Assembly: GCA_024653775.1 (NCBI GenBank) | Contig: JANLHZ010000185.1 | Coordinates: 1 to 57,935, forward strand | Source of the DNA: Planctomycetota bacterium | Lineage (GTDB): Bacteria; Planctomycetota; UBA8742; JACQVU01; JANLHZ01 | Reading direction: 5' to 3' | DNA length: 57,935 nt | Part shown: positions 10,466 through 54,047 of the stretch, piece by piece | Numbering within the stretch: the stretch's first letter is position 1 | Layout: the number at the start of each line of letters is the position of its first letter | Notes under the pieces: generated by a model | Seen by the model: the letters and a program-made list of their open reading frames with translations, nothing else | The model's database searches: none | What the model was told of the DNA's origin: nothing | Position numbers and translations under genes: made by a program

Positions 10466-11641
10466 ATGCCCCTGAGTCATCCACTAATTGTAACCTCGGC
10501 GCTTTCGCTGCTGATCCTCCTCGCGTACTACGCGCGCACGATGTGGATCCGCCGAAACGACGCGTATCTCTCGCCTACGGAAGCGGACGAGAGGGCACTC
10601 GTGAGCGTTCTGATCCCGGCGCGGGACGAGGCGCAGAACATCGCTCCGTGCGTGCGAAGTTTTCTCGCGCAGACCCACCGGAACCTCGAAATCATCGTGA
10701 TCGACGACCACTCGACCGATGGAACCTTCGATGTCGCGCAGACGGCGGGCGCGGGCGATCCCCGGCTGAAGGTCATCCGCGCGGACCCGCTCCCGGAGGG
10801 CTGGGCGGGAAAGAGCCACGCGCTCGTCTGCGGCGAACGCCACGCGTCGGGAGATTTCCTGCTGCTGACCGACGCGGACACGGTTCACCACCCTGCGGGG
10901 GTCGCGAGCGTTCTTGCGTACCTTCGCAGAGAAAACGCCGACATGGTTTCCGTCGCCGCGGAGCAGGAATGCAGTAGCATCGGGGAGGCGATCGTGCAGC
11001 CGATGGTGATTACGCTGCTCGATCAACGGCACAGTTTCGCCGAGGTCGCGCGGATTGGCGAAGGCGCGCCGCTTTCGTGTAACGGGCAGTTGATGCTGGT
11101 CCGCCGCGATGCGTACGATCGCGCGGGCGGCTACTGCGCCTTGCGCGCGGAAGTCCCAACGGACTACGCGCTCGCGGCTCTTGTGAAACGAAGCGGACTC
11201 GAATACCGCTTCGCGTTCGCGCCGGGGATCGTGCGCACGCGGATGTACGATTCCCTGCGCGCGTCGATTGACGGCTGGTCGAAGAACCTCTATCAGATCG
11301 TCTGCCGTCCAGAGTCGCGAGGGGCGCTTGCGAAGTTGTTCGCGCTGACGTTCGCGATTCCCGCGGTGACGACGCTTCCCTTCGTCTGCGCAGTCATGCT
11401 TTGCCTCGCGGACGCGAGCATAGCCGGCACGGGCGCGAGCACCCTCGCTCCCGGATCGCTGCTGCTTGCGCTTTACGTTTTCATCGCGGGGGAAATCTAC
11501 CGCGCGCACACGTTCACCCGCGCGCAGAGTCTGCTCGCGCCCATCGCAGGCCCAGTGGCGGTGCTGATTCTGTGGCTGTCGTTCCTGCGCTCGCGAAAAA
11601 AAAGCGCACGCCTTTGGAAGGGGCGCGCACTCCCGCGGTAA
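10466..11641 (+). CDS. Membrane glycosyltransferase, family 2 (HpnB/CrtQ-like)
   Basis: 391 aa. It has an N-terminal transmembrane helix (about 8-25), a GT-A domain with VSVLIPARDEA, VIDDHSTDGT and TDADT (the metal-binding DxD equivalent, about residue 136), and three or more C-terminal helices (about 285-385). This layout matches glycosyltransferases that act on lipid-linked acceptors, including those tied to hopanoid or carotenoid pathways. GWSKNLYQIV after the catalytic core is typical of this subgroup. The acceptor is unknown, and no hopanoid genes are in the window. Its TAA stop ends on the first base of a 182-bp repeat element. Confidence 0.85.
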   Translation: MPLSHPLIVTSALSLLILLAYYARTMWIRRNDAYLSPTEADERALVSVLIPARDEAQNIAPCVRSFLAQTHRNLEIIVIDDHSTDGTFDVAQTAGAGDPRLKVIRADPLPEGWAGKSHALVCGERHASGDFLLLTDADTVHHPAGVASVLAYLRRENADMVSVAAEQECSSIGEAIVQPMVITLLDQRHSFAEVARIGEGAPLSCNGQLMLVRRDAYDRAGGYCALRAEVPTDYALAALVKRSGLEYRFAFAPGIVRTRMYDSLRASIDGWSKNLYQIVCRPESRGALAKLFALTFAIPAVTTLPFVCAVMLCLADASIAGTGASTLAPGSLLLALYVFIAGEIYRAHTFTRAQSLLAPIAGPVAVLILWLSFLRSRKKSARLWKGRALPR

Positions 11642-11822
11642 GGAGGCGTAAAATAATAAGTTGCTTAAAATCGCGCTCAGATTTGCGTCAGGTTCGCTTT
11701 GCACGATTGAGCGAATCCGCAGTCGTAGCTGTAGTTACGTCGAGGAATTCGCGAATGAGTGCGGAGTGAAAATGAGGTGAAGATGAGATGCGAGTTAGGT
11801 AAGTTATTATTTTACGCCTCCT
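11641..11822. repeat. 182-bp terminal-inverted-repeat element, family 1, copy 1
   Basis: The terminal arms 11641-11659 and 11804-11822 are perfect 19-nt reverse complements. The core shares long stretches with copies at 23723-23904 (reverse orientation) and 53865-54047, for example AAAATCGCGCTC, CCGCAGTCGTAGC and GATGCGAG. The element begins at the last base of the glycosyltransferase stop codon. It has no coding capacity, so it would be non-autonomous (MITE-like) if mobile. Confidence 0.88.
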
Positions 11823-11927
11823 GAATCCGCGGTCCAAAAACGCAAACGGGTTGCGGCAACTCGCCCCTAAGGTGACAGATACAATATCGGGGCAAGTCAC
11901 CGCAACCGTCGTTCACGTCAGCACCGA

Positions 11928-12923
11928 TCAGTCATTCGGCATGTCCATCGGGACGTCCGTTGGCTCATCCGACGGTTCCTCCGCCGGTTCCTCTTCCGCC
12001 GGTTCCTCCTCCGGCTCTTCTACGGGTTCTTCACTGAGCCACGAGTCGACTGTCTCCTCGTTCTGCTCGATCCACTCAAGCGCGGTTTCGTACGGATCGG
12101 CTTCAGGCTCCTGATTTTTGAGCATGCACCATTCCGCATCGAAAACCGTAAACTCGAAGTTGTCGAGCAGTTTGTAAACGTCCGGATGCTCCTCGTCGAG
12201 TCCGAGGCGGACGATCGTGTGGATCTCCTCCTCACGTCCGAAGATGCCCTTCGGATCGTCCAGGTACCTCAGATCGAACTTCTGGAACATCCAGTGAGGC
12301 GTCCAGCCGGTTATGACGATGTTCCGCTGAAGGCGGATTGCCTCCTCCAGTTCCGCGATCATCGTGTCGTCCGTTCCGGTGATCAGGTCGAACCTGTCGA
12401 GACCGTACGTGTACATTGCATCGCTCGCCACACGCATTATTCCAGCGTCCGGCTCGATTCCGACGATCCTCCCGTCGAACTCACTCGAGCTCCACGCAAG
12501 TTCGGAAATCGAATCGATCGGAACGTAGCTCGGCACGACAAGCCCCGAACGCGTTCCTACAAGGTTTGCGCCGAGATCGACGACTTTGTCCTTGTTCGCT
12601 TCGAGGAACTCCGCATGCAGCGTCGGTAGCCATGCCGAAGCTGTCGCGTCGGATACGCCCTCCGCTATGGTTTGCCACATTTCGGGCGCGCTGACGGATA
12701 TTAACTCCGTCTCGTAGCCAAGTCTGGTTTCCAGAATGGCTTTCACAACGTAGGTGCTTGCCACCTCGCTGTCCCATTCGACGTATGCGAGTTTGATCGG
12801 TTCAGCCTCGCGGTTAACTCCGTCGCCCTCGTCTACGTCCTGAGCGTTCGCGTAGAACTGAACACCCGAGTAGCCGAAAGCGAGAGCGAATATTACCGCT
12901 AGAGTAATTGCAGTAATCTTCAT
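11928..12923 (-). CDS. proX: Glycine betaine-type ABC substrate-binding protein with acidic tail
   Basis: 331 aa, OpuAC/ProX family. After an N-terminal hydrophobic helix, the mature part reads KLAYVEWDSEVAST, ISVSAPEMWQTIAEG, SAWLPTLHAEFLE, LVVPSYVPIDSI, IVGIEPDAGIM and ITGWTPHWMF. These carry the Trp and Tyr positions that form the aromatic cage for quaternary ammonium ligands in this family. There is no lipobox Cys. The last 30 residues are a Glu/Pro/Asp-rich tail built from repeated EEP units, absent from its paralogue. It is the last gene of the betaine locus, 287 bp from the paralogous binding protein, so it may have its own promoter. Substrate could be betaine or another betaine-like solute. 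Confidence 0.87.
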   Translation of the reverse strand: MKITAITLAVIFALAFGYSGVQFYANAQDVDEGDGVNREAEPIKLAYVEWDSEVASTYVVKAILETRLGYETELISVSAPEMWQTIAEGVSDATASAWLPTLHAEFLEANKDKVVDLGANLVGTRSGLVVPSYVPIDSISELAWSSSEFDGRIVGIEPDAGIMRVASDAMYTYGLDRFDLITGTDDTMIAELEEAIRLQRNIVITGWTPHWMFQKFDLRYLDDPKGIFGREEEIHTIVRLGLDEEHPDVYKLLDNFEFTVFDAEWCMLKNQEPEADPYETALEWIEQNEETVDSWLSEEPVEEPEEEPAEEEPAEEPSDEPTDVPMDMPND

Positions 12924-13210
12924 TCCTACCTCCTTACTTCACAGCCAGTTCTCGGAAGCGGGGACGCGGAACATGAAGGTTCCGACCGTGAAATCCCCAC
13001 TTCCAACGTTGCCACCGATTTGAACAGCGGACACGCCGTTCCTATTCGAAATTCCACCGGAATTTTTCTCCGCGCCTATTTTTGACAATCAACTATTGAG
13101 ATCGAATTTGCGCCGCGGATTTCTTAATGCCGGAGGGAATTCACCCCGAAGGCAGACACTGGAAGGCTCGCCGCGGCGCGATTGCGAAAGGGAAAACGTT
13201 ACCCCGCTAA

Positions 13211-14068
13211 TCATTCGAGCCACTTCCTGACCTTGTCCTCGTTCTTGGCAACCCAAAGATTCGCCGCGTCGTAGGGTTCCTCGCCCTCCTGGATCATCCG
13301 CATGCAGTAGCTCATATCGTCCGTCGTCCATTCGAACTTGTCCAGGAACGCGTAGACCTTCGGCATGTCGTCTTCGAGTCCCTTGCGCACGATAGTGTGT
13401 ATTTCCTCCTCGCCGCCGTACTCGTTTTTCGAGTCAATGAGGTATTTCAGCTCGAATCTCGAGAACATCCAGTGCGGCGTCCATCCTGTGACGACCACGG
13501 GCTTTTCATACCTGATCCTGGTTTCGAGTTCCTTCGTCATAGTGGCGCTCGAACCTGAGATGAGTTGGAAGCCCTCCAGTCCGTAATTCGCGATGACGCG
13601 CTCCGTCGCCTTCATAATCCCCGCGCCCGGCTCGATGCCTATGATCCTTCCGTCGAACTCTTCCGCGCGCCCCCTCAGGTCCTCGATGGAAACGCAATCG
13701 ACGTACCCTGGCACGACGAGTCCGGACAGCGTCCCTTTAAGATTCGGGCCGAGGTCCACTACGCTGTCTTTCGTCGACTCGAGGAGGTCGGCGTGCAGGG
13801 TCGGAAGCCACGCCGCGACCATACCGTCGGCTTCGCCTTTCGCGATCGACTGCCACATCGCTGGCGCGCTCACCGCAAGGATTTCGACCTTCAGACCCAT
13901 CTTCTCCTGCAAGACGAAGCGGACGACGTTCGTGCTCGCGACCTCGCTGTCCCACTCGACGTACGCGAGCGTAACGTCCGCACGATCTGCGTCCGCATAG
14001 AACTTGTAGCCGACGTATCCGCCCACGAGAAGAATGAGTACTAGTAATGGCAGCGCTGCGTTTTTCAT
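13211..14068 (-). CDS. proX: Glycine betaine-type ABC substrate-binding protein (second paralogue)
   Basis: 285 aa, the same OpuAC/ProX fold as its neighbour. It shares LAYVEWDSEVAST, AVSAPAMWQSIAKG, AAWLPTLHADLLEST, LSGLVVPGYV, IIGIEPGAGIM and TGWTPHWMFSRFELKYL. It lacks the acidic tail and ends WVAKNEDKVRKWLE. A hydrophobic N-terminal helix (about 4-21) directs export; no lipobox is seen. GGAGC precedes the ATG. The two binding proteins differ at many positions outside the binding motifs, so they may differ in ligand or affinity while sharing one permease and ATPase. Confidence 0.88.
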   Translation of the reverse strand: MKNAALPLLVLILLVGGYVGYKFYADADRADVTLAYVEWDSEVASTNVVRFVLQEKMGLKVEILAVSAPAMWQSIAKGEADGMVAAWLPTLHADLLESTKDSVVDLGPNLKGTLSGLVVPGYVDCVSIEDLRGRAEEFDGRIIGIEPGAGIMKATERVIANYGLEGFQLISGSSATMTKELETRIRYEKPVVVTGWTPHWMFSRFELKYLIDSKNEYGGEEEIHTIVRKGLEDDMPKVYAFLDKFEWTTDDMSYCMRMIQEGEEPYDAANLWVAKNEDKVRKWLE

Positions 14069-14080
14069 TTGTTGCTCCTT

Positions 14081-14122
14081 TAGTCAGTAGTCAGTAGTCA
14101 GTAGGTTGTTAGTTGTTGGTAA
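14081..14122. repeat. Heptamer array (TAGTCAG), operon gap
   Basis: Three exact TAGTCAG units (14081-14101), followed by degenerate TAGGTTG, TTAGTTG and TTGGTAA. It lies just upstream of the start of the second binding protein. The same unit appears at 25933. Confidence 0.85.
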
Positions 14123-14134
14123 ATCTGAAATCTT

Positions 14135-14199
14135 GATAACTTTGGCGCCCTATCGGACGCGTGGCTCGATAACTTTGGCGCCCAATCTGGCGCGTGGCT
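14135..14199. repeat. Two tandem copies of a 32-nt REP-like hairpin unit
   Basis: Units at 14135-14166 and 14168-14199 both read GATAACTTTGGCGCCC then a short loop, then a complementary G/C-rich arm and GTGGCT. The central part folds as GCGCCC-loop-GGGCGC (imperfect here). A third unit lies on the opposite strand at 35159-35190, after the NtrC-type gene. It sits between the permease and binding-protein genes of the betaine locus. Confidence 0.85.
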
Positions 14200-14203
14200 G
14201 AAA

Positions 14204-15052
14204 TCACTCCCTGCGACTCGCGCGCATAATCCGGTCGAGAACGATCGCGAGGATCACGATGCCGACGCCGGCTTCGAATCCCGCGCCGAGCTGAAGGCGC
14301 TGGATCGCCTTCCACACTTCGCTACCGAGTCCGCCCGCGCCGATCATCGCTGAGATGACGACCATCGAAAGCGCGAGCATTATCGTCTGGTTGACGCCCG
14401 CCATTATCGAAGGCGTCGCGGTTGGAAGCTGTACCGTGACGAGCTTCTGCCAGCGCGTCGCGCCGAACGCGTCCGCCGCCTCGGTGAGGTCCTTAGGCGT
14501 CTGGTCGATCCCGAGCACCGTCAGCCTGATCGCGGGCGGCATAGCGAACACGACGGTCGAAAATATCGCGGACGTGTTGCCGAGTCCGAAGAACGGGATC
14601 GCGGGAATCAGATAGACGAACGCCGGGAGCGTCTGCATGAAGTCGAGCGCGGGCATCGTCACCCGACGAAATCCGACCGACAGCGCCGCCGCGATGCCGA
14701 GCGGAATTCCGAGGAGAACACAGATCGAGGTAGAAAGGAGCACGAGTACAAGCGTGGATACCGCGGGCGCGAATAGTCCGAGGTTCCAGATGAACGCGAA
14801 TCCGAAGAACGTGAAAAGCGTGACGCCAACCCTTCTCGTGAGCCACCACGCGACGAGCGCGAAAAACAGAATCACCACGATCGGCGGGAAGAATCCGATG
14901 AACCCCTCGAGTTCGCGGATGGCGCCGTCGACAACGAGCGAAAGCGATTTCGTCAGCTTCGAGAAGCTGCTCTCCAGAAAATCGATGCACCGCTCCACCG
15001 CCTCGCCGAGAGGGATTTTCGGGATTTCGATTTCTGCGGTTGTAGTATTCAT
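14204..15052 (-). CDS. proW: Glycine betaine/proline-type ABC transporter permease
   Basis: 282 aa, ProW/OpuAB family. An N-terminal amphipathic stretch is followed by about six or seven transmembrane helices. The cytoplasmic coupling segment is seen in DLTEAADAFGATRWQKLVTV (about 192-211), the EAA-type loop. PALDFMQTLPAFVYLIPAIPFFG and SMVVISAMIGAGGLGSEVW are characteristic of the family. It forms the membrane channel with the adjoining ATPase and imports betaine-type solutes. It starts 30 nt after the ATPase stop; a heptamer array fills that gap. Confidence 0.93.
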   Translation of the reverse strand: MNTTTAEIEIPKIPLGEAVERCIDFLESSFSKLTKSLSLVVDGAIRELEGFIGFFPPIVVILFFALVAWWLTRRVGVTLFTFFGFAFIWNLGLFAPAVSTLVLVLLSTSICVLLGIPLGIAAALSVGFRRVTMPALDFMQTLPAFVYLIPAIPFFGLGNTSAIFSTVVFAMPPAIRLTVLGIDQTPKDLTEAADAFGATRWQKLVTVQLPTATPSIMAGVNQTIMLALSMVVISAMIGAGGLGSEVWKAIQRLQLGAGFEAGVGIVILAIVLDRIMRASRRE

Positions 15053-15055
15053 TGG

Positions 15056-15090
15056 TAATTCGTAATTCGTAATTCCTAATTCCTAATTGC
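15056..15090. repeat. Heptamer array (TAATTCG/TAATTCC) spanning the proV stop codon
   Basis: Five 7-nt units, TAATTCG twice, TAATTCC twice, then TAATTGC, from 15056 to 15090. The minus-strand stop codon of the ATPase gene (15083-15085) lies inside the array. Related units occur at 35228 and, on the other strand, at 42502. Confidence 0.88.
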
Positions 15091-15925
15091 CACCCCGTTC
15101 CGCCCACGGCGCGACGAACCGCGCGACGTACTTCGTTGCGGGATTGTTGACGATTTCCTCCGCGGTTCCGGACTGCACGACAACGCCGTCCTTCATCAGA
15201 ATCGTGCGCGATCCTAGCGCGAAGGCTTCGTCAAGATCGTGCGTGATGAAGACGAACGTCTTCCCGAGTTTTTCGCGCAGCGCTAGGATTTCCGTCTGCA
15301 TCTCCTTGCGGATAAGCGGATCGAGAGCGCTCAGCGCTTCGTCCATCAGGATCACCTCGGGATCGAGCGCGAGCGCCCGCGCGAGGCCGACGCGCTGCTG
15401 CATCCCTCCCGAAAGCTGGCGGATTTTGCTCTTAGCCCAGCTTGCGAGTCCGACGAGGTCCAGCACTTCCATCGCCTTTTTGTTTCTGTCGACCTTCTGC
15501 ATTCCGCGGATTTCGAGTCCATACGCCGCGTTTTCGAGGACGGTCCTGTGAGGCAGCAGCGCGAACTTCTGGAACACCATCGAAATCCTGCGCCGGCGGG
15601 TTTCGCGGAGCTGCTCCGGATTCATCGCGGTGATCTCGTCATCGTCGATGAATACCTTACCCGCGGTCGGCTCGATGAGGCGGTTGATTAGCCGCGCGAG
15701 CGTGCTCTTGCCGCTGCCGGAGAGCCCCATCACGACGAGGATTTCGCCGTGGAAGACTTCGAAGCTGACCCCGGACACGCCGACAACCTGCCCCGTCTCC
15801 GCGAGGATTTCATCCTTCTCTTTTCCTTCCGCGAGCATTGCGAGAGCCGCTGAAGGATTATCGCCGAAGATCTTCGTCAGACCTTCCGTGCGGAGGATCG
15901 GCGCGGGCGGATGCGATTCGTTCAC
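15083..15925 (-). CDS. proV: Glycine betaine/proline-type ABC transporter ATP-binding protein
   Basis: 280 aa. Walker A is GLSGSGKST (67-75), the Q-loop MVFQKFALLPH, the signature LSGGMQQRVGLARAL, Walker B VILMDEALSALDP and the switch His FITHDLDEA. An N-terminal segment of about 50 residues (IFGDNPSAALAMLAEGKEKDEILAETG) is the family hallmark of ProV/OpuAA. The protein ends soon after the ATPase core, so it lacks the two C-terminal CBS domains that let OpuA sense ionic strength. Osmotic control must therefore act elsewhere, perhaps at transcription. It follows the two methyltransferase genes on the same strand. Confidence 0.94.
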   Translation of the reverse strand: MNESHPPAPILRTEGLTKIFGDNPSAALAMLAEGKEKDEILAETGQVVGVSGVSFEVFHGEILVVMGLSGSGKSTLARLINRLIEPTAGKVFIDDDEITAMNPEQLRETRRRRISMVFQKFALLPHRTVLENAAYGLEIRGMQKVDRNKKAMEVLDLVGLASWAKSKIRQLSGGMQQRVGLARALALDPEVILMDEALSALDPLIRKEMQTEILALREKLGKTFVFITHDLDEAFALGSRTILMKDGVVVQSGTAEEIVNNPATKYVARFVAPWAERGGN

Positions 15926-16046
15926 GTATTACGCTCTCCGTCGCAATTCGCCCTCACCCCGGCCCGTCACACGAGGTGTGTTCCCGGAAGGAGAGGGAGT
16001 TTGAATTGTATATGTGTCCATCTGTATCCGTCTGTGGTTTATCTTT

Positions 16047-16080
16047 GCGACAGCTCGCTCCGCTCACAGTCGCACTCCGA
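16047..16080. repeat. 34-nt dispersed repeat, copy 1
   Basis: GCGACAGCTCGCT followed by CGCTCACAGTCGC and CTCCGA; the same 34 nt occur at 47588-47621 with two substitutions. It lies in the gap between the second methyltransferase gene and proV, which otherwise shows no gene. Confidence 0.75.
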
Positions 16081-16099
16081 CGCACTCCGAAACTGCGGT

Positions 16100-16942
16100 T
16101 CAACCAGGTTTCCTGAAATGGAAAATGCCCCAGGAGAGCCAGCCCTTCTCGCCGCCTTCGATCCAGCGGCGGAGGCCTTCCTTCATCCGCTCGATGTAAT
16201 CCGCGCTGATCTTGCAACTAAGGCTCTTTTCATTTCGCTCCGTGTCGCGAAGCACCGCGCTGTAGTGATTCACAAGCTGGTGCGTGAGATCCTCGAAGGA
16301 AATCAGCTCGAGCCCGCGCTTGGCGCACTCGTTCCTGTAGAAGCCGGGAGAGCCTAGCGTCGCGAGATGAATCCGATCGAGGATCGGGTCAAGCACGCCG
16401 TCCGGGCAATCGTCGGACTGCATGGGGTCGGTGAAAATGAACTCACCGCCAGGCTTCAGGACGCGCGCGACTTCCGCGATGACCTTTTCCCGGTTCCCGC
16501 TGTGAAGGATCGCGTCCTGCGACCAGACGACGTCGAAGCTCGCATCCTCCGCGGGCACCTCCTCGAAGCTGCCGCAGGCAACGTCGATCTTTTCTTCGAG
16601 GCCGAGTTCGCCGTTCAGCTCGCGATGCCGATCGTTCTGGACCGCGCTTAGGTTCAGAGCGGTGACGTGGCAGCCGAACTTCCGCGCGAGGAACCTCGCC
16701 GCGCCGCCGTAGCCGGAGCCGAGGTCGATGACGCGGGAATCCCCGGTAACGCCTTCAATTTTCGACGCGATCCGCTCGACGGTCTTTTCGCTAGCGACTC
16801 TGATGTCGTCTTCCTTCGAATCGTAGAGTCCGATGTGAATGTCGGACCCTCCCCAGATTTCGTAATAGAAATTGTCGGCGTCGTCCGAGTTGTAGTAATC
16901 CCGCGCGCTATCGACCGCGGTGGGCTTTGCTTCTGTGGTCAT
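16100..16942 (-). CDS. sdmt: Sarcosine/dimethylglycine N-methyltransferase
   Basis: 280 aa, SAM-dependent class I methyltransferase. It should add the second and third methyl groups, sarcosine to dimethylglycine to glycine betaine. Motif I is VIDLGSGYGGAARFLA (71-86); VWSQDAILHSGNREKV and LKPGGEFIFTDPMQ follow in the expected order. The N-terminal DYYNSDDADNFYYEIWGG and the C-terminal RRWIEGGEKGWLSWGIFHFRKPG resemble the halophile enzymes described from Halorhodospira/Ectothiorhodospira and Aphanothece. GAAGGAG precedes the ATG. It lies 38 nt after the glycine/sarcosine enzyme and upstream of the betaine importer genes. The assignment relies on family resemblance plus the paired neighbour. 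Confidence 0.9.
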   Translation of the reverse strand: MTTEAKPTAVDSARDYYNSDDADNFYYEIWGGSDIHIGLYDSKEDDIRVASEKTVERIASKIEGVTGDSRVIDLGSGYGGAARFLARKFGCHVTALNLSAVQNDRHRELNGELGLEEKIDVACGSFEEVPAEDASFDVVWSQDAILHSGNREKVIAEVARVLKPGGEFIFTDPMQSDDCPDGVLDPILDRIHLATLGSPGFYRNECAKRGLELISFEDLTHQLVNHYSAVLRDTERNEKSLSCKISADYIERMKEGLRRWIEGGEKGWLSWGIFHFRKPG

Positions 16943-16980
16943 GTTTTTCTCCTTCTTATGTTTGGCACGACACCTTACTA

Positions 16981-17811
16981 TCAGTCGTTCTCGTAGGGAT
17001 TCTCGTTCTCGTGATAGAGCTTCTCCGCGACGTGGACGAAGAAATCCGGCTCGTTTTCGCGGTAGGTTTCCTGGAAATCGCCGAAGGTCTCGATATGCTG
17101 GAAGCCGACATCGTGCATCAGCCTGCGGGTGTACGCCTTGCGCAGGGGGAACATGTTCAGGTGGAAAACGCTGTCGTCCGGGAATCGGTACTCGAAGCGC
17201 GCGAGTCCGTCGTCGACGTGTACGGGTTTCGCGCTGACGTTCTCGCCGCAGTAGTAGTAGATGTGCTTGCTCGAAAAGCCGCTGTCGAGAATGGAATCGT
17301 AGTTGCGCTGGTCGAGGACGAGAACGCCGTCGTGCTTCAGCATGGCGTAGTACTCGGCGAGCGCCTTTCTGCGGTCGCGCTCCGAGAAGATGTGCGTGAA
17401 CGAGTTTCCGAGGCAGATAATCGCGTCGTATTCGCCGTGGACGTCGCGGTTCAGGAAACGCCAGTCCGCTTGCACTGTGCGAAGGATGAATCCGCGCTCC
17501 CTTGCGTTGTCGAAGGCCTTAGAAAGCATCTCCGCGCTTCCGTCCGCGCTGACGACCTCGAACCCCGCCTTCAGAAGTCGGACGGAATGGAATCCGGTGC
17601 CGGTGGCGACGTCGAGCACCTTCCGCGCGCCCTTCGCCTTCAGAAGGTCGATGAAGAACGTGCCCTCGCTTTCCGCGCGACTTTCCCAGTCGATCAGCTC
17701 GTCCCACTTATCGACGAAGCTGTGGACGTACTCGACCTTGTAATGATCGGTCTCGCGAACGTTGGTCGGATTGGGACCGAAGCTCTGACTCATCTCTTTT
17801 GTGAGCGTCAT
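16981..17811 (-). CDS. gsmt: Glycine/sarcosine N-methyltransferase
   Basis: 276 aa from the ATG at 17811, preceded by AAGGGAGA; the frame is open upstream to 17994 but without a good start. It performs the first two methylations, glycine to sarcosine to dimethylglycine. Motif I is VLDVATGTGFHSVRLL (65-80), then VSADGSAEML, AIICLGNSFTHIF, and DQRNYDSIL, which resembles the family phrase for substrate binding. The C-terminal KAYTRRLMHDVGFQHIETFGDF is typical. Length matches the roughly 265-275 aa of halophile enzymes. With the next gene it gives a complete glycine-to-betaine route using three SAM. A promoter candidate lies about 215 nt upstream. Confidence 0.9.
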   Translation of the reverse strand: MTLTKEMSQSFGPNPTNVRETDHYKVEYVHSFVDKWDELIDWESRAESEGTFFIDLLKAKGARKVLDVATGTGFHSVRLLKAGFEVVSADGSAEMLSKAFDNARERGFILRTVQADWRFLNRDVHGEYDAIICLGNSFTHIFSERDRRKALAEYYAMLKHDGVLVLDQRNYDSILDSGFSSKHIYYYCGENVSAKPVHVDDGLARFEYRFPDDSVFHLNMFPLRKAYTRRLMHDVGFQHIETFGDFQETYRENEPDFFVHVAEKLYHENENPYEND

Positions 17812-18026
17812 GGTTTCTCCCTTCGAAACAGATGCTGCGCCGGATTCGGGCGTTCCCGAATTCAGCTTTCCCAGGTGGTGACAGGACTCCGAACTCTCCG
17901 CGATCGAAACCGACGAAAAGACATCGAAATCCGTTTGGAAACCTCTCGCGCACCTTAGACACATTCCGCGAGGAATTATCGATGATCCCCGCAAACGAAC
18001 GCTAATACGTAAGAGGCAATAGTGCT

Positions 18027-18054
18027 ATTCTACCAAACCGCCGAAGGGTTTCAA
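18027..18054 (-). promoter_or_regulatory. Candidate sigma-70-type promoter of the betaine locus
   Basis: On the minus strand: TTGAAA (18054-18049), 16 nt, TAGAAT (18032-18027). It would give a 5' UTR of about 210 nt before the first methyltransferase gene. The rest of the 17812-18283 gap holds only the repeat at 18124-18263. Confidence 0.4.
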
Positions 18055-18123
18055 GGATTCCTGATTTTAATGGAATCTTCGATCGAATCGTGTAAATTCA
18101 TTTTTCATAACCGTTCGTGTGGT

Positions 18124-18263
18124 GAGCTTGGGAGTGCAGGCGTCTCGCCTGCGCATCTTCAAATCCATCATCTGCTGGTTTCAACAGACAATGCTTATCT
18201 TATCCATCAGTCGAGGACGCCTGATGGATTTTGCGGACGAGGACGTCCGCGTTCCCAGCCCGT
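18124..18263. repeat. Composite hairpin repeat upstream of cysNC
   Basis: GCAGGCGTCTCGCCTGC forms a tight hairpin on the left, and GCGGACGAGGACGTCCGC forms another on the right. GCTTGGGA near the left end and TCCCAGC at the right end are partly complementary and close the unit. The right hairpin recurs at 52743-52761. Confidence 0.65.
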
Positions 18264-18283
18264 GAACACTTCCTGATTTTCCC

Positions 18284-23722: not shown

Positions 23723-23904
23723 AGGGGCCTCAAAATAATAAGTTATACATCTCGCATCTCATATTCACGTCATCTTCACATCGCACGTGGTCGTCAAATC
23801 CTCGAAGTAACTATAGCTACGACTGCGGCTTGACGTGGTCGCGCAATGCGAATCTGCCGCAACTCTGGGCGCGATTTTGTATTACTTATTACTTTGAGGC
23901 TCCT
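23723..23904. repeat. 182-bp terminal-inverted-repeat element, family 1, copy 2 (reverse orientation)
   Basis: Arms 23723-23742 and 23885-23904 are complementary at 18 of 20 positions. Read on the minus strand, the core matches copies 1 and 3 (AAAATCGCGCCC, CCGCAGTCGTAGC, GAGATGCGAG). The arm sequence contains GCCTCAAA where copy 1 has GGCGTAAA. It lies between folP and the adaptor-protein gene; the remaining bases to 24005 show nothing else. Confidence 0.87.
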
Positions 23905-42497: not shown

Positions 42498-42501
42498 GTT
42501 C

Positions 42502-42529: not shown

Positions 42530-42576
42530 TTGAATAGCAACGACTATAAATCGAATCACGACAGCGGAGAAAACGA

Positions 42577-43233: not shown

Positions 43234-43326
43234 AACTCGACCTCGGCGTGTTCCAGCCTCCATAGCGAGAGCACGGAAGTTCGACCTTGGCTTCCGTCGG
43301 ATGTGGATTCGGAGTAACATCGATAA

Positions 43327-44352: not shown

Positions 44353-44425
44353 ATTCAATCCGGAACGCGCAAGCTTCACCTTCCTCGACCTGCTGAGCGT
44401 CCTTACGTCGATGCTTGATTCCGAT

Positions 44426-44473
44426 AGTGAACTTACCTCGTTTTTTGTGTGCCCCAAAACGGGGAAGTTCACT
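44426..44473. repeat. Long imperfect hairpin, 17-bp arms
   Basis: AGTGAACTT...CGTTTT (44426-44444) and AAAACGGGGAAGTTCACT (44456-44473) are complementary apart from two positions. It lies just before the duplicated leader at 44481; no T-tract follows in the plus direction. Confidence 0.65.
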
Positions 44474-44480
44474 CGACCCC

Positions 44481-44767: not shown

Positions 44768-45128
44768 CGATTTTTTAGCGCAATGCGACTTGCGCATTAC
44801 CGGTAAAGGACAGCGCCTGCTTTGAATCGATGAAAGATTAAAAAAGGAACCACTCTCGGTTGTCTTCCGACTCCACCGACTAACCACCGAGGAAGACAGC
44901 CACCCACAGGGACAAGCCTAAATCTGCCCCCTGTTTTTTTGCAGAATAAGTCACTATTCATTCGGGAGCCTTCAGGGAAGGCCCATTCGCCCATGCGAAT
45001 TGGGGTATAATTGAATTATTCCATAGCGGAGAAGACTCGAAGGAAAACGACGACGAAAAACTTTCTGCATTGGAAAACAGACCCGCACAATCACCCGCAT
45101 CAGGGACGGCATTAGGATTACGCGCTAA

Positions 45129-47366
<2,238 letters not shown>

Positions 47367-47822
47367 TCACGGCGCAAAATGTCATCGAAGAATTCTGACT
47401 GACCCGGCGGCGGGCACTCGGAGACAAACATCCCCGAAGGGATGGCGGACCAGCCCCGGCGTGGCGACGTGTTTGTTGCCCGCGCATACCCGTTACGCGA
47501 TCAACTCCATAGGAGCGACCTGTTTGTAGCATCGCGCAAGAAATTATCCACGAAAGCGAGCCTCTCTCCCCGGCGGAGAGAGAAGTCGCGACAGCTCGCT
47601 TCGCTCACAGTCGCGCTCCGAAATTTACTTCGGACTTCTGACCCGTGTCTTATCGTTGCGAGCACGAGTTCGTCTTTTCACGCGGGCTTTATCCGTGGGG
47701 AGGTAGAGGCCCCGCCTTGAAGCTTGTGTAAAGCGCGTCCCACACGGGAACGAGTGCATTCAAACGATCATTATCATCTTCGAATTTCCTGCAGAAGCCA
47801 TCGGTGATGATCCGCGTCGCTT
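47367..47822. other. Gene-poor gap with a dispersed repeat and decayed sequence
   Basis: No credible gene. 47588-47621 repeats 16047-16080 with two substitutions. The stretch before it (GGAGACAAACATCCCCGAAGG... CATAGGAGCGACCTGTTTG) has the look of REP-type intergenic units seen in many genomes but has no second copy here. Confidence 0.55.
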
Positions 47823-48113
47823 GTGCTCGGGCTGCTGTTCTTCGGAGTGTTCGCGCCATTAGTCAGCTATAACGATCCTCTCGAGCAGAGGATGGAACAC
47901 AGGATGGAAGGTCCGTCGCTCGAATTTCCCCTCGGTACGGATCACCTTGGCAGGTGCCTTCTGTCGCGGATTATCTGGGGAGCGCGAAGGACGCTTTTCG
48001 TCGCTCTTGGCGCTGGGCTTGTTAGCATCATCATCGGCACCGCGCCGCAGATCGCAATCGTCGCCTCCATCGCAATCGCGATCGGGGTGTTCGGCTTCAA
48101 CCTCATAGGCTAA
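47823..48113 (+). pseudogene. Internally deleted Opp/Dpp-type ABC permease fragment
   Basis: The 96-codon frame begins like a DppC/OppC permease: a membrane helix, LVSYNDPLEQRMEHR, then SLEFPLGTDHLGRCLLSRII and WGARRTLFVALGAGLVSIIIGT, which closely match the usual phrases PLGTDxLGRDxLSRxxxGAR. It then jumps to PQIAIVASIAIAIGVFGFNLIG, which corresponds to the last helix of the family (normally followed by GDxLRDxLDP). The roughly 150 central residues, including the coupling loop, are missing, and the end is lost. No other opp/dpp gene is present. It is a relic, not a functional transporter. Confidence 0.72.
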
Positions 48114-48259
48114 GACGGTAAATCGCGGCAAGGCATCTGTCCAGTTTTAGGGGGGCAGTTCACGCAGCGACTATTTTTTTTCAACGTCGCTTTCCTCATC
48201 GCCGTTCCTGATTTCTAATTTCGTGGTTCCGCTTTCCGCTGAACTCCATGAAGGGTCAG

Positions 48260-49654
48260 ATGCGCATCCATTTTCTGCTGATGATTCCGCTGCTTGCGGC
48301 ATGCAACATGTCGCCTGAGAGGATTCCCGCGGAGAGTCTCGATATCGAGGTGCCGGAGTCGTGGTACGCGTCGTACGGGGAAGGCGACGTCGATAACTCG
48401 CGATGGTGGCTTTCATTCGAAGACGAAATGCTCGCGAAGGTCGTCACGAAGGGCGTAGAGAACAGCCGGAGCCTCAAGATCGCTGCGGCGCGCGTGGAAG
48501 CGGCGGGGGCGCAACTCGAAGCGGTAACGGGTCAGATGTACCCCGCGCTCGATCTCGGAATTACAGGGACGAGGCGTGTTCAGAACTTCATAGGCTTCCC
48601 GATTCCAGGCGGAGGCAATGGCGTGCTTACGTCGCGCTCGAACACATTCGGGCTGTCGCTGAATCTCTCGTGGGAACTCGACCTCTGGGGCCGCGTGCGA
48701 TCGCAGGTCAGATCAGCCACCGCGGCGTACGAGGCGAGCGAAGCGGACGCGCTCGCGGCGCGGGAGAGCCTCGCGGCGCAAATCGTCAAGATGTGGTACT
48801 CCTGCGTCGAGGCGCGGCTCCAGACCGCCGCGGCGGAAGAAGCTCAGGGCGCGGCGAAGATGCTCGAGGACGCGCTCAGAGAGCGTTTCGAACGCGGACT
48901 CGTACCCGCGGAGGCGTACCTGAACGCGTCCATCCAGCGAAAATCGCGGGACGCGGCGCAGAGCCAGCGTCGCGACTTGCAACAGAAGCTCACTCGCCAG
49001 CTCGAGATCGTTATAGGCGACTACCCCGCGAACGCGCTCGAACTCGCGGATTCGCTCCCGGAGATTGCGAATGACGTCGCGGCGGGGATGCCCGCGCAGC
49101 TCGTGACGCGCAGGTGGGACGTCGTTCGCGCGGAAAGACAGCTCGCCGCGACGGAGATGTCAGTCAGCGCGGCGCGCGCGGCGCTTTTCCCGCGGCTTTC
49201 CCTTTCCGGAAGCGGAGGCACCTCGACGGAGAGCATCAAAGACCTCCTTGACGGCGACTTCAGCGTCTGGAACATCGCCGGGAATATCCTCCAGCCGATC
49301 TTCCACGGGGGAACGCTGCTCGCACAACTCGATGAAAGCGCGTCGAAGCGCGATCAGGCGCTCCACGGCTACGCGATAGCGGTCTTGCAGGCGTTCTACG
49401 AGGTCGAAAGCCTCATCGATGCCGACAATTATTCAAAGCAGGCGACATCGGAGCTGACATCGAGCTTCGAGGACTCTTCAGCGAATTTCGATCGCGCGAA
49501 GCAGCGCTACGAGCAAGGCGTCACGAACACGATCGATTTCCTGCAAGCGAAGCTCTCTTTCCTCGACGCGAAAAGCCGCCACTTGCAGGCGCTGAACCAG
49601 CGCATTGCAGCCCGCGTCGATCTCCACCTCTCTCTCGGCGGCGGGTTCGAGTAG
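48260..49654 (+). CDS. Outer-membrane efflux lipoprotein (TolC/OprM-NodT family)
   Basis: 464 aa from ATG 48260, which has AAGGG five bases upstream; an earlier ATG at 48248 is less well placed. The signal peptide ends in the lipobox LLAAC (Cys at about 15). Two OEP repeats follow: WWLSFEDEMLAKVVTKGVENSRSLKIAAARVEAA, then LSWELDLWGRVRSQVRSATAAYEAS; and in the second half VVRAERQLAATEMSVSAARAALFPRLSLSG and ERYEQGVTNTIDFLQA-like helices. It forms the outer-membrane exit duct of a tripartite efflux pump. No pump gene is next to it; the adaptor at 24006 could be its partner. A family 2 element is inserted at its stop codon. Confidence 0.92.
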   Translation: MRIHFLLMIPLLAACNMSPERIPAESLDIEVPESWYASYGEGDVDNSRWWLSFEDEMLAKVVTKGVENSRSLKIAAARVEAAGAQLEAVTGQMYPALDLGITGTRRVQNFIGFPIPGGGNGVLTSRSNTFGLSLNLSWELDLWGRVRSQVRSATAAYEASEADALAARESLAAQIVKMWYSCVEARLQTAAAEEAQGAAKMLEDALRERFERGLVPAEAYLNASIQRKSRDAAQSQRRDLQQKLTRQLEIVIGDYPANALELADSLPEIANDVAAGMPAQLVTRRWDVVRAERQLAATEMSVSAARAALFPRLSLSGSGGTSTESIKDLLDGDFSVWNIAGNILQPIFHGGTLLAQLDESASKRDQALHGYAIAVLQAFYEVESLIDADNYSKQATSELTSSFEDSSANFDRAKQRYEQGVTNTIDFLQAKLSFLDAKSRHLQALNQRIAARVDLHLSLGGGFE

Positions 49655-49656
49655 GC

Positions 49657-49796
49657 GTAACTGTTCACGGGGTTAAATGCGTTCGTAGTGACGCCGTAAG
49701 GCGTTTCTTTGATCCTCTACTATCTGGAAATATGCTCTCACGAGCACACTACGAACAGATTCTCGCTATAGACTGCGAACTACCCCGTGAACAGTT
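49657..49796. mobile_element. 138-bp inverted-repeat element, family 2, copy B, with 11-bp direct repeats
   Basis: The right terminus GCGAACTACCCCGTGAACAG... (49775-49796) and the left terminus AACTGTTCACGGGGT (from 49659) are complementary; the left inner arm has diverged. TTCGAGTAGGC occurs at 49646-49656 and again at 49796-49806, flanking the element as a direct repeat. The first copy includes the TAG stop of the TolC-like gene, so the insertion left the reading frame intact. The rest of the gap to 50078 shows no gene. Confidence 0.88.
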
Positions 49797-50078
49797 TCGA
49801 GTAGGCTATTCCCGCCTTTCGCCGTGGATTCGAGGTTTTAAGCGAGATGTATGTCACATCGCCGTGGCGCGACATACTGTAGAATTATTTTGCGCTGAAT
49901 GAAAATCGTAAGCTCGATTTGAAGCTGGCCCAGATAAATCTGCACAGAATTCAACTGTGTGAAAAGTGACAGATGTCCGCTTCCGGAATGTGTGCATTTT
50001 CATATCGCGAACATCGGGAACATTTGCGCTGTTAAAATTCGCGTAAGTCGAACTCGATTTCAAAAAGGAGAGAATGCT

Positions 50079-52583
50079 ATGCGTACTTTCACGATGAGAT
50101 CGACGATTGGAGTTGGTCTGCCTGGGAAATTAACCCTCGCGGCAGGCCTCATCTCCATCGCCCTATTGATCGCAGCAGGTTGCGATTCTAACTCAAGGGA
50201 CCACGGCCTTATGAGACGGCCCGACATGTCCGGTATGGCGGCCAAAGGTCCGATCGCAAACGCCGACGTTTCGGTCGACGTGAAACTCCAAAACGAAGCG
50301 ACGGTAAACTTCGCAAACGTCACCACAGACGCGAACGGTCACTTCACCGTATCCGGGGCAATTCCGGACGGAGTCGTGACGGTGAAAGCGTCTGGAGGAT
50401 CGTACGTGGATGAGTCCACCGGCACGACAGTCAATCTTACTTCGAACCAGTCGATTCGCGCAAAGGTCAACTGGAACGCGTCCACAAACGCGAACATCGC
50501 GGTTACGCCGCTGACGGAAGCCGCGGTGGTACGCGCGGAAGCCTTGGTAGACTTAGGCTGGAGCGAGGCAGACGCGGCAGCTCAGGCTAACGCGGAGATC
50601 AGCGCCTACTTTGGGGTGGACATCGTTCACACGATGCCAGCGGACCCGACGGACGCAGGTTCGAGCACTCGGGCCGAGGCTGAAATCGATTACGGCATTA
50701 TTCTTGCTGGAATCACGCAGTTGAATGTCGAACTGGGAGGCAACTCCGAGGACGCGATGCTGCTTGTGGAATTGATCGCGAAAGACATTTCCGACTCCGA
50801 AGTCGATGGCGAGGAGGACGGCGAGGTGCTGCTGTTCCTAGGCGCGAATCTGCCCTCGGATTCCGCAAGCCACGGGCTTCTTCGCGCAATCGCGAACTTC
50901 GAGGCGGGTCCGCGAAATCAGGGGTTTTCCCTTTCCGGGCAGGCGAACGCCAAGCTGAACGCGAGCGCGAACGCCGGCGGACTCGCGGATCACTTCGCCG
51001 GAATCTACGGCAAGACCGCGTTCAGCTCTGTCGCGGAGAGTTCGATACATGCTCGGGTCGTTCCTGAGGATGGAGGCGAGTCCGCCTTCTTCGGCGAGAC
51101 GCGCAGCAACGCGAAGGGATACTTCAGCATTGGCGTAACCGTCCCTGAAGGCGTCATCGAGGCAACGTCTTCCGGAGGTTTCTATATCGATCAGGCGACA
51201 AGCCAGATCGTCCAACTGGAATCCACGGATTCTCTTCGCGCGAGGCTGCGTTACGACAGCGAAACTTCCGCGGATTTGTCCGCGAGGATAATGGTAACGC
51301 CGCTGACGGAAATCGCGGTGGCGAGAGCCGACGCGCTTATCGAAGCGGGTCTTACCGCATCGGATGCTACCGTCCAGGCTAACAGCGAGGTAAGCGAATA
51401 CTTCGGAGTCGAGATAGTCGGGACGCTCCCGGCGGACACGATCCACGCGAGCACTCACAGCAGGACGGAGGCTGAAGTGGACTACGGTATGATCCTCTCG
51501 GGCTTCTCGCAGTTGAACGCCGACCTCGGCGGACAGCCGTCGGATCTGAAAGTTCTGATCGAGCTGATCGCGGAGGATTTCGCGGACGGGATGATCGACG
51601 CGAAGGCGGACGGCGAAGCCCAAATATTCCTTGGCGCTACGCTTCCTGTCGACGCGGGCGGCGAGGCGCTTATCAACGCGATCGCCACCTTCGAGGCGAG
51701 TTCACGCAACGCGGGTTTCTCGCTGTCGATGGCCACGGAAGCCGCGCTGAACGCGGGCGCGGAGGCGAACTGTCTTCCAAACGTTCACGTCTCGTTTGAA
51801 GGCGACGTGTCATTCTGCGGACCCGTGCTTGGAGCGACGGTAGACGTGCGCGTCATAAGCGGTGCGCAAACAATCACGGTCGGTACAGCTTCGACGGACT
51901 CCTCGGGGCATTTCTCCGTTCAGGGGGAATTCCCGTATGGAGTGCTTCAAGTCGAGTCTACCGGCGGTGCGTACATAGATCACGCGACTGGCGACTCGGT
52001 AGCGCTATCTCTCGTCGAATCGTTTCGCGCGGAGATAGCCTGTACCGCGTCGACGTCCACTGCGATTTCTGGCGAAATTGCGGTGACGCCTCTGACAACG
52101 TTCGCGGCGGCGAGGGCGGACGCGCTTGTGCTTCTTGGAAGCGCGCGCGCGGAAGCCGTCACCAAGGCGAACGCCGAGATCAGCGCCTACTTCGGCGTCG
52201 ACATCACAGGCGTGATGCCGGCGAATCCGACGGATTCTGGCGCGAGCGCGTCGACGCAGGCTGAGCTCGATTACGGGCTGATCATCGCCGGGATTTCGCA
52301 ACTCAACCTCGATCTCGGCGGAGACGCCGAGGATTCGAAGATGCTGGTCGGACTTATAGCGCTCGACCTCGCTGACGGTACTGTCGACGGGAAAGCGTCC
52401 GGAACTTCGTTGCCGTTCCTGGGCGTGGACCTTACGGCAGACGCGGCGGGCGAGGCGCTGATTTCGGCCATCGCCAGCTTCGAGGCGGGGACTCGCAACG
52501 CCGGGTTCTCGCTTTCAAGCGAGACAAGCGCGACGCTCAGCGCGAGTGCCGCGGCGGATGTGCTTCCGGACGTGTTTCCGTAA
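50079..52583 (+). CDS. Three-repeat surface lipoprotein
   Basis: 834 aa from ATG 50079 (AGGAG upstream); the frame is open to 49959 but without support. The signal ends in the lipobox IAAGC. The mature protein consists of three tandem repeats of about 260 aa. Each starts with a carboxypeptidase-regulatory-like beta domain (FANVTTDANGHFTVSG...VKASGGSYVDESTG) and continues with a helical part whose hallmark is VTPLTEAAVVRAEALV, then ANAEISAYFGVDIVHTMPADPTD, the matching FEAGxRNxGFSLS closing each unit. It has no enzyme motif. It probably forms an extended cell-surface protein. A strong terminator follows. Confidence 0.82.
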   Translation: MRTFTMRSTIGVGLPGKLTLAAGLISIALLIAAGCDSNSRDHGLMRRPDMSGMAAKGPIANADVSVDVKLQNEATVNFANVTTDANGHFTVSGAIPDGVVTVKASGGSYVDESTGTTVNLTSNQSIRAKVNWNASTNANIAVTPLTEAAVVRAEALVDLGWSEADAAAQANAEISAYFGVDIVHTMPADPTDAGSSTRAEAEIDYGIILAGITQLNVELGGNSEDAMLLVELIAKDISDSEVDGEEDGEVLLFLGANLPSDSASHGLLRAIANFEAGPRNQGFSLSGQANAKLNASANAGGLADHFAGIYGKTAFSSVAESSIHARVVPEDGGESAFFGETRSNAKGYFSIGVTVPEGVIEATSSGGFYIDQATSQIVQLESTDSLRARLRYDSETSADLSARIMVTPLTEIAVARADALIEAGLTASDATVQANSEVSEYFGVEIVGTLPADTIHASTHSRTEAEVDYGMILSGFSQLNADLGGQPSDLKVLIELIAEDFADGMIDAKADGEAQIFLGATLPVDAGGEALINAIATFEASSRNAGFSLSMATEAALNAGAEANCLPNVHVSFEGDVSFCGPVLGATVDVRVISGAQTITVGTASTDSSGHFSVQGEFPYGVLQVESTGGAYIDHATGDSVALSLVESFRAEIACTASTSTAISGEIAVTPLTTFAAARADALVLLGSARAEAVTKANAEISAYFGVDITGVMPANPTDSGASASTQAELDYGLIIAGISQLNLDLGGDAEDSKMLVGLIALDLADGTVDGKASGTSLPFLGVDLTADAAGEALISAIASFEAGTRNAGFSLSSETSATLSASAAADVLPDVFP

Positions 52584-52654
52584 GCGCGCCCGCGCAATTT
52601 TGACGGAGAAGGACGCCTCGGTTTTATGAGTTCGACTTACAGGCGTCATATCCG

Positions 52655-52707
52655 GGCGGTTTCAGCGGGGTTCAGCAAAATAGCTCCGCTGGAGCCGCCT
52701 TTTTTTT
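52655..52707 (+). terminator. Intrinsic terminator of the three-repeat lipoprotein gene
   Basis: GGCGGTTTCAGCGG (52655-52668) pairs with CCGCTGGAGCCGCC (52686-52699) over 14 positions including two G-T pairs, followed directly by eight T. Confidence 0.88.
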
Positions 52708-52713
52708 GCGATC

Positions 52714-52831
52714 CCTAAGAAACTATCGTGGGCACCTGGGACCGCGGACGTCCTCGTCCGCAAAAGCCGCCAAACGTCTCGTTTGACGGCTCCGAATTAT
52801 CGATGTCGCTTGCCTACGATAGTTTCTAAGG
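52714..52831. repeat. 118-bp inverted-repeat element, family 4
   Basis: Left arm 52714-52734 and right arm 52811-52831 are 21-nt complements with two mismatches. Two inner hairpins are visible: GCGGACGTCCTCGTCCGC and GCCG...GTCTCG...CGGC. A single-ended relative lies at 33681-33729, and the first inner hairpin recurs at 18232-18250. Confidence 0.85.
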
Positions 52832-52923
52832 ACGCGCATCCTAAGTTCGGAAATTGTTTCGCGATCCGAGTTCCACGAATACAATCTTTCATTCGCATTA
52901 CGTCTAAACGGGTGAACACAGAT

Positions 52924-53865
52924 ATGAACCTTAGATTCAAGCACATCGTTCTTGCGGCGCTGGTCAGCCAGATAATATTCGCGATCGTCGTCGTTCTCGG
53001 AGTCTACGCCGTCGGCGCAACCGCGCTGAAGCCCTCGGAGGAGCGAGATGAGAAACTCGAGCAAGCCGCCGACGAAACGTGGGACGAACTCTTCGAAGAG
53101 CTTGCCGCAAACCCGCCCACATCCGCTCCGGAAGCGCCGGTGGCTCGCTCAGCGCTTACGAACGAAATCTCTTCGCCTGCGGAGTTCGACGCGGAGGAAG
53201 CCTCAGCCGCGATCGCCTCCGCGGAAGAAGACGCTTCGCAGATCGAAGCGCATCCTGAGGTGGTTCCGGAGCGCATCGCTAACGCCGACCTTCGCGACGC
53301 CGCGACGCGCGATCAGATGCTGCCTTTCCTCGAGCAGGGATCCTTCGCGCAGGTCCTTCAGACAGAGAGCGAAGGCCCGGGCTACCCGGTGCGCGTTTCA
53401 ACGCTCGTCGAAGCCCCGCTCCGGCTCGTGTTCGCGTTGTTCCGCAGGATCGACCAGTGGAGCGGATTCGTGCCCAAGGTCGAAGGCAGCAAGGTCGTCG
53501 AAGGCGGAGACGCGGACCTTCGAACGGAGCTTGTCTACAATATGACGTACATGCCGCGCAGGACGGTGGTCGAGGACTGGACGATTATCGAAAATGAGAG
53601 CATGCACAGCGAAATCGTCCGCGGCGAAGTCACTGGCTGGAACCGTTACGACTTCTACGAGGCAACCGCTGAGCGAACGATTGTGGTCCACACGACGTAC
53701 ACCGTCGTCACGAACGCGCTCGCCCGGATGATCACAGGCGCGGAAAGCTCGTGGGACACGCAATTCAACCTTGCGGGCGCTATCCTCCGGATGGACGCGT
53801 TCAAGCAGCGCGGAGAGGCGATGTACAAGCGCTTCCTTGAGCAGCGCGAAGACGGAAACGAGTAA
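52924..53865 (+). CDS. Membrane-anchored SRPBCC (START-like) domain protein
   Basis: 313 aa from ATG 52924; the ribosome site is weak, and the frame upstream runs through the repeat element. One N-terminal membrane helix (about 6-30) is followed by an Ala/Glu-rich flexible linker (about 40-130). The C-terminal half (about 150-300) has the layout of the polyketide-cyclase/START-like family: RVSTLVEAPLRLVFALFRRIDQWSGFVPKV, ELVYNMTYMPRR, a central beta-sheet and a long last helix (MDAFKQRGEAMYKRFLEQ). It would bind a hydrophobic ligand at the outer face of the inner membrane. Ligand unknown. A family 1 element begins at the last base of its stop codon. Confidence 0.75.
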   Translation: MNLRFKHIVLAALVSQIIFAIVVVLGVYAVGATALKPSEERDEKLEQAADETWDELFEELAANPPTSAPEAPVARSALTNEISSPAEFDAEEASAAIASAEEDASQIEAHPEVVPERIANADLRDAATRDQMLPFLEQGSFAQVLQTESEGPGYPVRVSTLVEAPLRLVFALFRRIDQWSGFVPKVEGSKVVEGGDADLRTELVYNMTYMPRRTVVEDWTIIENESMHSEIVRGEVTGWNRYDFYEATAERTIVVHTTYTVVTNALARMITGAESSWDTQFNLAGAILRMDAFKQRGEAMYKRFLEQREDGNE

Positions 53866-54047
53866 GGACGCGTGCATTAATAACTTACCGAAAATCGCGC
53901 TCGGATTTGTGTCAGGTTCGCCTTGCGCGATAGAGTCAAACCGCAGTCGTAGCCATAGTTCCGATGAGGATTTGACGATTGAGCGCTATGTGAAAATGGC
54001 GCGAAGATGTGATGCGAGATCGGTAAGTTATTAATTGTACGTGTCCT
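53865..54047. repeat. 183-bp terminal-inverted-repeat element, family 1, copy 3
   Basis: Arms 53865-53890 and 54021-54047 are complementary except for two G-T type pairs and a one-base bulge. The core matches copies 1 and 2 (AAAATCGCGCTCGGA, CCGCAGTCGTAGCC, GATTTGACGA, GATGCGAGAT). The arm reads ACGCGTGCATTAA, unlike either other copy, yet both arms agree. It starts at the last base of the SRPBCC stop codon. Confidence 0.88.

Follow-up and report, generated by a model that had tools for sequence, protein, structure and literature searches.

Several families of miniature inverted-repeat transposable elements (MITEs) with long stems are known from bacteria, namely Correia/NEMIS, RUP, ERIC, and YPAL (PMC2229807). 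Here we describe a hairpin element of about 182 bp that is present in three copies in a stretch of 57,935 nucleotides, called the window below, from a planctomycete genome (Planctomycetota bacterium, GenBank assembly GCA_024653775.1, contig JANLHZ010000185.1, positions 1 to 57,935 of the forward strand). Its ends appear to be kept as a matching pair rather than as a fixed sequence. It shares with the four families a length below 200 bp, a non-coding sequence, terminal inverted repeats, and a duplication of the target, and the transcripts of these families are predicted to form long stem-loops, a further likeness to this hairpin. Most of them are said to have TA at the ends, whereas the element duplicates TWA, and, unlike theirs, its arms vary between copies and match within a copy (PMC2229807).

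In kind the element belongs to the known long-stemmed MITEs of bacteria and comes close to the mobile single-stem motif MRSC-65-2. A single long covarying stem, dozens of copies per genome, and an occurrence in diverse phyla are common to both, and MRSC-65-2 is thought to be selfish and, like the present element, may take the form of either RNA or DNA (PMC11109978). The conserved UYCCGG repeat of MRSC-65-2 (at least two words) is found in none of 211 copies of the element, and a single such word is present in 36 of 149 copies from its own genome (PMC11109978). The family may be another of the 250 mobile or repeat candidates counted in the same source.

PIF/Harbinger elements make TWA duplications, and it is this target duplication that links them to the element; in contrast to PIF/Harbinger and the IS5 group, no linked transposase was found, and the ends are not fixed in sequence (PMC4482050). 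REP/REPIN and RAYT systems share with it dispersed palindromes, which are also reported from Planctomycetes (PMC3733652). However, REPs measure 20–40 bp and carry GTAG or CGTC tags (PMC3733652), whereas the element duplicates TWA and is about 182 bp long. Selenomonas bovis, moreover, has copies of it but no Y1 match. Template switching has been reported as a cause of matched arms in hairpins and short inverted repeats, and the copying of one arm from the other leads to matched multi-base changes as seen here; the cases described there concern rRNA, microRNA, and yeast genes and not a constant property of mobile-element ends (PMC8794818; PMC8604942). At gathering scores, Rfam 15 had no match at the copies in the window or at those of 11 related loci, permissive Rfam searches with a copy from the window and another from Selenomonas yielded sub-threshold matches only, and searches of the open-access literature listed no description identifiable with this hairpin family.

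Arms Match Within Copies and Differ Between Them

The original prediction, made from the sequence of the window alone, had placed three elements there, and all of them were confirmed at the same positions:

11641–11822, plus strand: copy 1, 182 bp, covariance model score 201.7 bits
11641–11659, plus strand: left arm of copy 1, with AGG, a variable block, and AATAA
11804–11822, plus strand: right arm of copy 1, 19/19 bases complementary to the left arm
11714–11749, plus strand: rod tip of copy 1, with the internal loop CCGNAR / YGAGGA and the end hairpin
23723–23904, minus strand: copy 2, 182 bp, TAA at both flanks (minus strand), 186.1 bits
23797–23832, minus strand: rod tip of copy 2
53865–54047, plus strand: copy 3, 183 bp, TAA at both flanks, 193.6 bits
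53938–53973, plus strand: rod tip of copy 3

The claimed complementarity of the arms within a copy was likewise recovered, with full pairing in copy 1, 18/20 bases in copy 2, and nearly complete pairing in copy 3, interrupted by a few mismatches and by a single additional base of the right arm. The core of copy 1 (GG..CC) is flanked by TAA (11639–11641) and TGA (11822–11824). Its left TAA doubles as the stop codon of the open reading frame (ORF) 10466–11641, and the left TAA of copy 3 (53863–53865) doubles as that of ORF 52783–53865.

The copy number in the genome is about 150 according to a covariance model search, an approximate value given that some pieces at contig ends may be two ends of one copy. 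The model was built from 31 copies and found at least 150 matches (weakest E-value 1.1e-17), 149 of which were extracted, one on contig C142 being left out. Arms were compared in a main set of 122 copies that have GG at positions 2–3 and a length of 181, 182, 183, or 197 bp. The AGG at positions 1–3 and the AATAA at positions 15–19 are nearly invariant (1.65–2.0 bits per position), and the variable positions are 4–14 (0.09–1.25 bits each) and 20–26. Within copies, 1304 of 1464 base pairs at positions 4–15 are of the Watson-Crick type (89%), compared to a mean of 815.5 (56%) after shuffling of the right arms among copies. The 122 left arms comprise 82 distinct 12-mers, the commonest of which recurs in up to 6 copies. 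Pairing at positions 4–14 is perfect in 28 copies, which form 24 arm types, and at most one mismatch is present in 84/122 copies.

An alignment of 31 copies gave a similar picture. In the outer helix 17 of 25 pairs change on both sides, and the whole structure pairs in 97.2% of the cells, compared to 88.3% in shuffled alignments. Cells changed on both sides number 143, versus 42.8 after shuffling; for both values, none of 500 shuffles was as high. When the partner was slid by 1–3 columns, pairing fell to 32–51%. As the structure prediction relied on this very alignment, and shuffles can be exceeded by related sequences, pairing within copies compared with pairing between copies provides the stronger control. 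The shuffled-arm test and the 31-copy alignment strongly support arm covariation beyond chance, and neither many copies with invariant arms nor a lack of covariation, which had been named beforehand as outcomes that would speak against the original prediction, was found in this genome. Its statement that the arms differ between copies holds for positions 4–14, but not for the nearly fixed AGG and AATAA. It also held that ordinary MITE ends are bound by a transposase and should be alike in all copies; the two fixed blocks could be bound in this way, and the copies therefore need not evade the usual recognition of ends.

Near-identical cores can carry quite different arms, with both arms differing as blocks. 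For example, L002 and L033 have 20 differences within positions 5–26 and 157–178 and 3 between them, and L004 and L039 have 15 differences within positions 4–31 and 154–179 and 2 between them. Recombination or gene conversion between cores would give this block pattern. The apparent speed of arm change is partly due to core exchange and, because cores swap between copies, the diversity of the arms would be partly old and does not provide a clock. Arms of two different types were found together in L143:1217–1413, L146:1221–1417, and L103:291–472, which are recombinants or assembly errors.

Lengths and Insertion Sites

The element is 182 bp long in 95/149 and 197 bp in 22/149 copies of its own genome; the 197-bp copies, L006, L007, and L009 among them, have a 15-bp insertion near the tip. 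Among the best 40 of 211 candidates, blastn against the own genome returned at least 45 matches, 40 of which run in the same direction as the element. Ten further model matches were present in 20 other stretches of the genome, and eight of the ten are half copies at contig ends. The assembly is indeed broken by the element, many contigs ending inside a copy (L119, L130–L135, L137, L139, L145, L149, L151, L158, L159, L161, L163–L165).

Like a MITE, the element is short, non-coding, and dispersed in many copies, and it has terminal inverted repeats and a target-site duplication. Equal trinucleotides flank 82 of the 117 copies with intact termini and flanks (53 TAA, 27 TTA, 1 ATA, 1 GAA), and for no other duplication length between 1 and 9 do more than 4 of these 117 have equal flanks. 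A TWA duplication, as in PIF/Harbinger or IS5 elements, is thus found in 80/117 copies. The orientation of the element and the target strand are linked, TAA on the element strand being twice as common as TTA.

Only 11/149 copies overlap a predicted gene in a crude gene model. Where genes were called on both sides, 33 copies lie in sense to both and 25 in antisense to both (p = 0.36), and nothing points to a regular part of the element in neighboring transcripts. Divergent genes flank 36 copies and convergent genes 9. An excess of the sense orientation toward the downstream gene (80:39) was dropped, because it stems from these divergent and convergent pairs and is independent of the orientation of the element. 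The copy number, the target duplication, and the neutral orientation argue for a mobile element more than for a host RNA gene.

The Core Is Structured on One Strand

The plus strand folds more stably than its complement in 102/102 copies of 181–183 bp, with a mean difference of 26.45 kcal/mol. In an alignment of the tip with 37 sequences (9 from the own genome and 28 from 15 other genomes, with L178, L187, and L190 excluded), 14 of 15 predicted pairs covary; the tip structure was predicted on this same alignment, and 12 of the 15 pairs are unpaired in the search model. The paired tip cells amount to 88%, versus 70% after shuffling, a value reached by none of 500 shuffles. The internal loop CCGNAR / YGAGGA is nearly constant. 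Folding predictions and covariation together show a rod-shaped core that is structured on one strand and conserved across phyla, and that would act as RNA or single-stranded DNA.

Mismatches and Matched Changes

If selection on an RNA hairpin kept the arms matched, G-U should exceed A-C on the transcribed strand at the base of the hairpin. Mismatches were grouped in 117 copies, five of the 122, including window copy 3, having been dropped because their arms are chimeric or shifted by indels. The independent mismatch groups number 20 G-U versus 19 A-C at positions 4–12, 11 versus 7 at positions 13–19, and 24 versus 7 at positions 20–26 (p = 0.003), and the balance differs between positions 4–12 and 20–26 (p = 0.03). 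Therefore, a symmetric DNA process, for example arm-to-arm copying, fits better than RNA selection at positions 4–12. In this block 60 mismatch groups are private to a single copy and 10 are shared, the pattern expected of mismatches that originate after insertion and are rarely inherited. Between neighboring arms, matched double changes comprise 20 transitions and 32 transversions, compared to 71 and 45 among the decay mismatches (p = 0.007). Because a wobble route would favor transitions and arm copying would not, stepwise compensation via wobble pairs does not seem to be the main path. Matched single-pair differences between otherwise identical arms were found in 12 pairs of neighbors.

Search for a Mobilizing Enzyme

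PF13340 and PF13359, the only DDE families searched in the own genome besides PF01609, gave no match, and the three PF01609 matches are unlinked and have other ends. No autonomous partner was seen among the matches listed (about 101 of 269 places with the end pattern), with 20 stretches inspected. The genome has one match to a reverse transcriptase (PF00078) and five Y1 matches (PF01797). Among the 11 bearing genomes, a reverse transcriptase match is present in six and a Y1 match in eight, the latter being lacking in G313, G321, and Selenomonas bovis; S. bovis has neither of the two, but two PF01609 matches. A universal need for a reverse transcriptase or Y1 enzyme was rejected on this co-occurrence, with the limit that absence from draft genomes is no proof. 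In the cultured species Selenomonas bovis DSM 23594 (L227–L256), one arm word of a related element with nearly fixed arms was matched 41 times. Thirty of these 41 places were inspected; in 27 an inverted partner lies no more than 200 bp away, and no clear end of a longer element was found among the 30. In L250 an end-like word with two mismatches lies 1.3 kb away.

Possible Mechanisms and Alternatives

We give about an even chance to a MITE-like element that is mobilized in trans and has a sequence-free arm block kept matched mainly by copying. The element is non-autonomous and inserts at TWA with a duplication of 3 bp. The enzyme would act in trans, might be of the PIF/Harbinger/IS5 kind, and would be encoded elsewhere or have been lost; a DDE enzyme is favored because TWA is the duplication of PIF/Harbinger. 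It is predicted to bind the fixed AGG end together with the fixed AATAA block one helical turn inside. The 11-bp block between the two would have no required sequence and would be renewed as a matched pair, with template switching in the hairpin using one arm as the template for the other. Mismatched copies would spread less, and a swapping of cores between copies by recombination or gene conversion would let the arms differ more than the cores.

Several observations weigh against this explanation. No enzyme gene with matching ends was found, and the ends of the own and related transposases differ. At positions 4–19, 17 mismatch groups are common to two or more copies. The strict set of matched changes is small and not significant (5 to 7, p = 0.23), and the relaxed set is made up of pairs that are not independent. 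The 53:27 ratio of TAA to TTA by element orientation departs from equality (p = 0.005), which speaks against an equal treatment of both ends, because that would not predict a skew. In S. bovis a G-T (G-U) pair occupies arm position 7 in 11 of 12 placed copies, the twelfth having G-G; these copies are a selected sample, since one end was fixed in the search, and G-C is found at this position in another copy (L250). A shared G-U pair in nearly fixed arms speaks against efficient copying in that species. Together with the shared mismatch groups it indicates that arm copying is at best partial. The matching may rest on copying, on a requirement for pairing, or on both. The original prediction had suggested either selection for pairing or the copying of one arm from the other; covariation and the behavior as a folded strand agree with this, but positions 4–12 show no strand-specific RNA pairing.

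Alternatively, the element could move as a folded single strand, either plus-strand RNA or single-stranded DNA, with ends recognized as a structure and not by their sequence and with a 3' arm remade by fill-in along the 5' arm. The better fold of the plus strand in every copy compared, the covariation of the tip across genomes, the persistence of inner mismatches next to matched outer arms, and the preference for TAA over TTA in element orientation are all in favor of such a route. However, the target duplication is short, as is typical of DDE enzymes, reverse transcriptase and Y1 matches are missing from several bearing genomes and both from S. bovis, and the Selenomonas arms share a G-U pair, and we regard the route as unlikely. 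A little less probable still is that selection after insertion on a functional RNA hairpin, for example a regulator or a processed transcript, keeps the copies matched. This would agree with the strand-specific fold, the covariation, and the excess of G-U at positions 20–26 (24 to 7), but G-U is not in excess at positions 4–12 (20 to 19), the orientation to flanking genes is not biased (33 versus 25), and the matched changes are rich in transversions. Slightly more doubtful again is the possibility that the ends are recognized by their mutual matching. The element would travel as or through a folded strand with an arm remade in each round, the drifting block would be a self-address that pairs a copy's own ends among about 150 relatives, and an enzyme used across bacterial phyla would grip the element by the rod and its conserved tip loop.

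The recurrence of some arm types (the same left 12-mer in up to 6 copies) could also mean that several ordinary MITE subfamilies are present, each with its own transposase and fixed ends that diverged long ago, and core exchange would make the arms look faster than they are. Yet 82 distinct left 12-mers among 122 copies and 24 perfect arm types among 28 copies are too many for separate enzymes, and the matched single-pair differences in the 12 neighbor pairs as well as the 84/122 copies with at most one mismatch at positions 4–14 also make this explanation very improbable. With about 150 copies, the genome offers a natural set for telling arm-to-arm copying from selection for pairing in a mobile hairpin. 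Should it be possible to maintain ends by their match to each other, in the absence of a fixed sequence, there would be an exception to the usual view of transposon ends as fixed binding sites, and elements of this sort would escape searches that look for conserved terminal repeats.

Distribution of the Element

The family is a structured mobile element of several phyla without an Rfam match. The same architecture was found in 14 other genomes among 392 of the phylum that were searched, and a search of 41 relatives at milder settings added two more, G002 and G038. A search with the tip pattern gave 31 stretches in named genomes: six from Geobacter and Geobacteraceae, six from Candidatus Scalindua, five from S. 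bovis, four each from Desulfobacterales and Candidatus Fermentibacteria, and one each from another planctomycete, Saprospiraceae, Maribacter, a deltaproteobacterial metagenome-assembled genome (MAG), Rhizobium sp. L1K21, and Nitrospira. The copies in the Maribacter and Nitrospira MAGs are 90–91% like a Scalindua copy and, judged from this similarity, may be misbinned. For 15 foreign copies the best match in the own genome is 66–76% identical, and many foreign copies start with AGG and have AATAA or a near form 11 bases on. Two copies of the element or its motif lie near each other in L210:1324–1599 (deltaproteobacterial MAG), and likewise in L223:7357–7539 (Desulfobacterales MAG).

With blastn, an own copy had no match in the plasmid or the phage collection, Selenomonas and Geobacteraceae copies had none in the plasmid collection, and a Scalindua copy had none in the phage collection. 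A strict pattern search of viral sequences gave no stretch. A looser pattern gave 33, including three with a model match, namely L262 and L270 at 136.5 bits each and L293 at 65.8 bits; L277 has the rod fold without a model match, and the remaining stretches fold otherwise or at the tip only. Likely copies on sequences filed as viral (IMG/VR) are L262:10864–11044, L270:3755–3935, L293:7160–7322, and L277:2337.

In the Saprospiraceae MAG-151 (L203:3554–4282) a likely copy at 4044–4210 lies between a GOLLD RNA (3554–4024), which scores exactly at the gathering score, and a tRNA-Gly gene that belongs to a 16-tRNA array.

Another repeat family, about 110 bp long, with the ends AGAAACTATC / GATAGTTTCT and adjoining TTA or TAA, is present in the window at 52718–52827. 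As a control it says nothing about the invariance of ends, since the search fixed its ends to one mismatch. Repeats with AGAAACTATC ends are also found at L064:1905–2014, L103:474–583, L155:3009–3118, and L138:311–420, and in L155 and L138 they sit inside or against a copy of the hairpin element.

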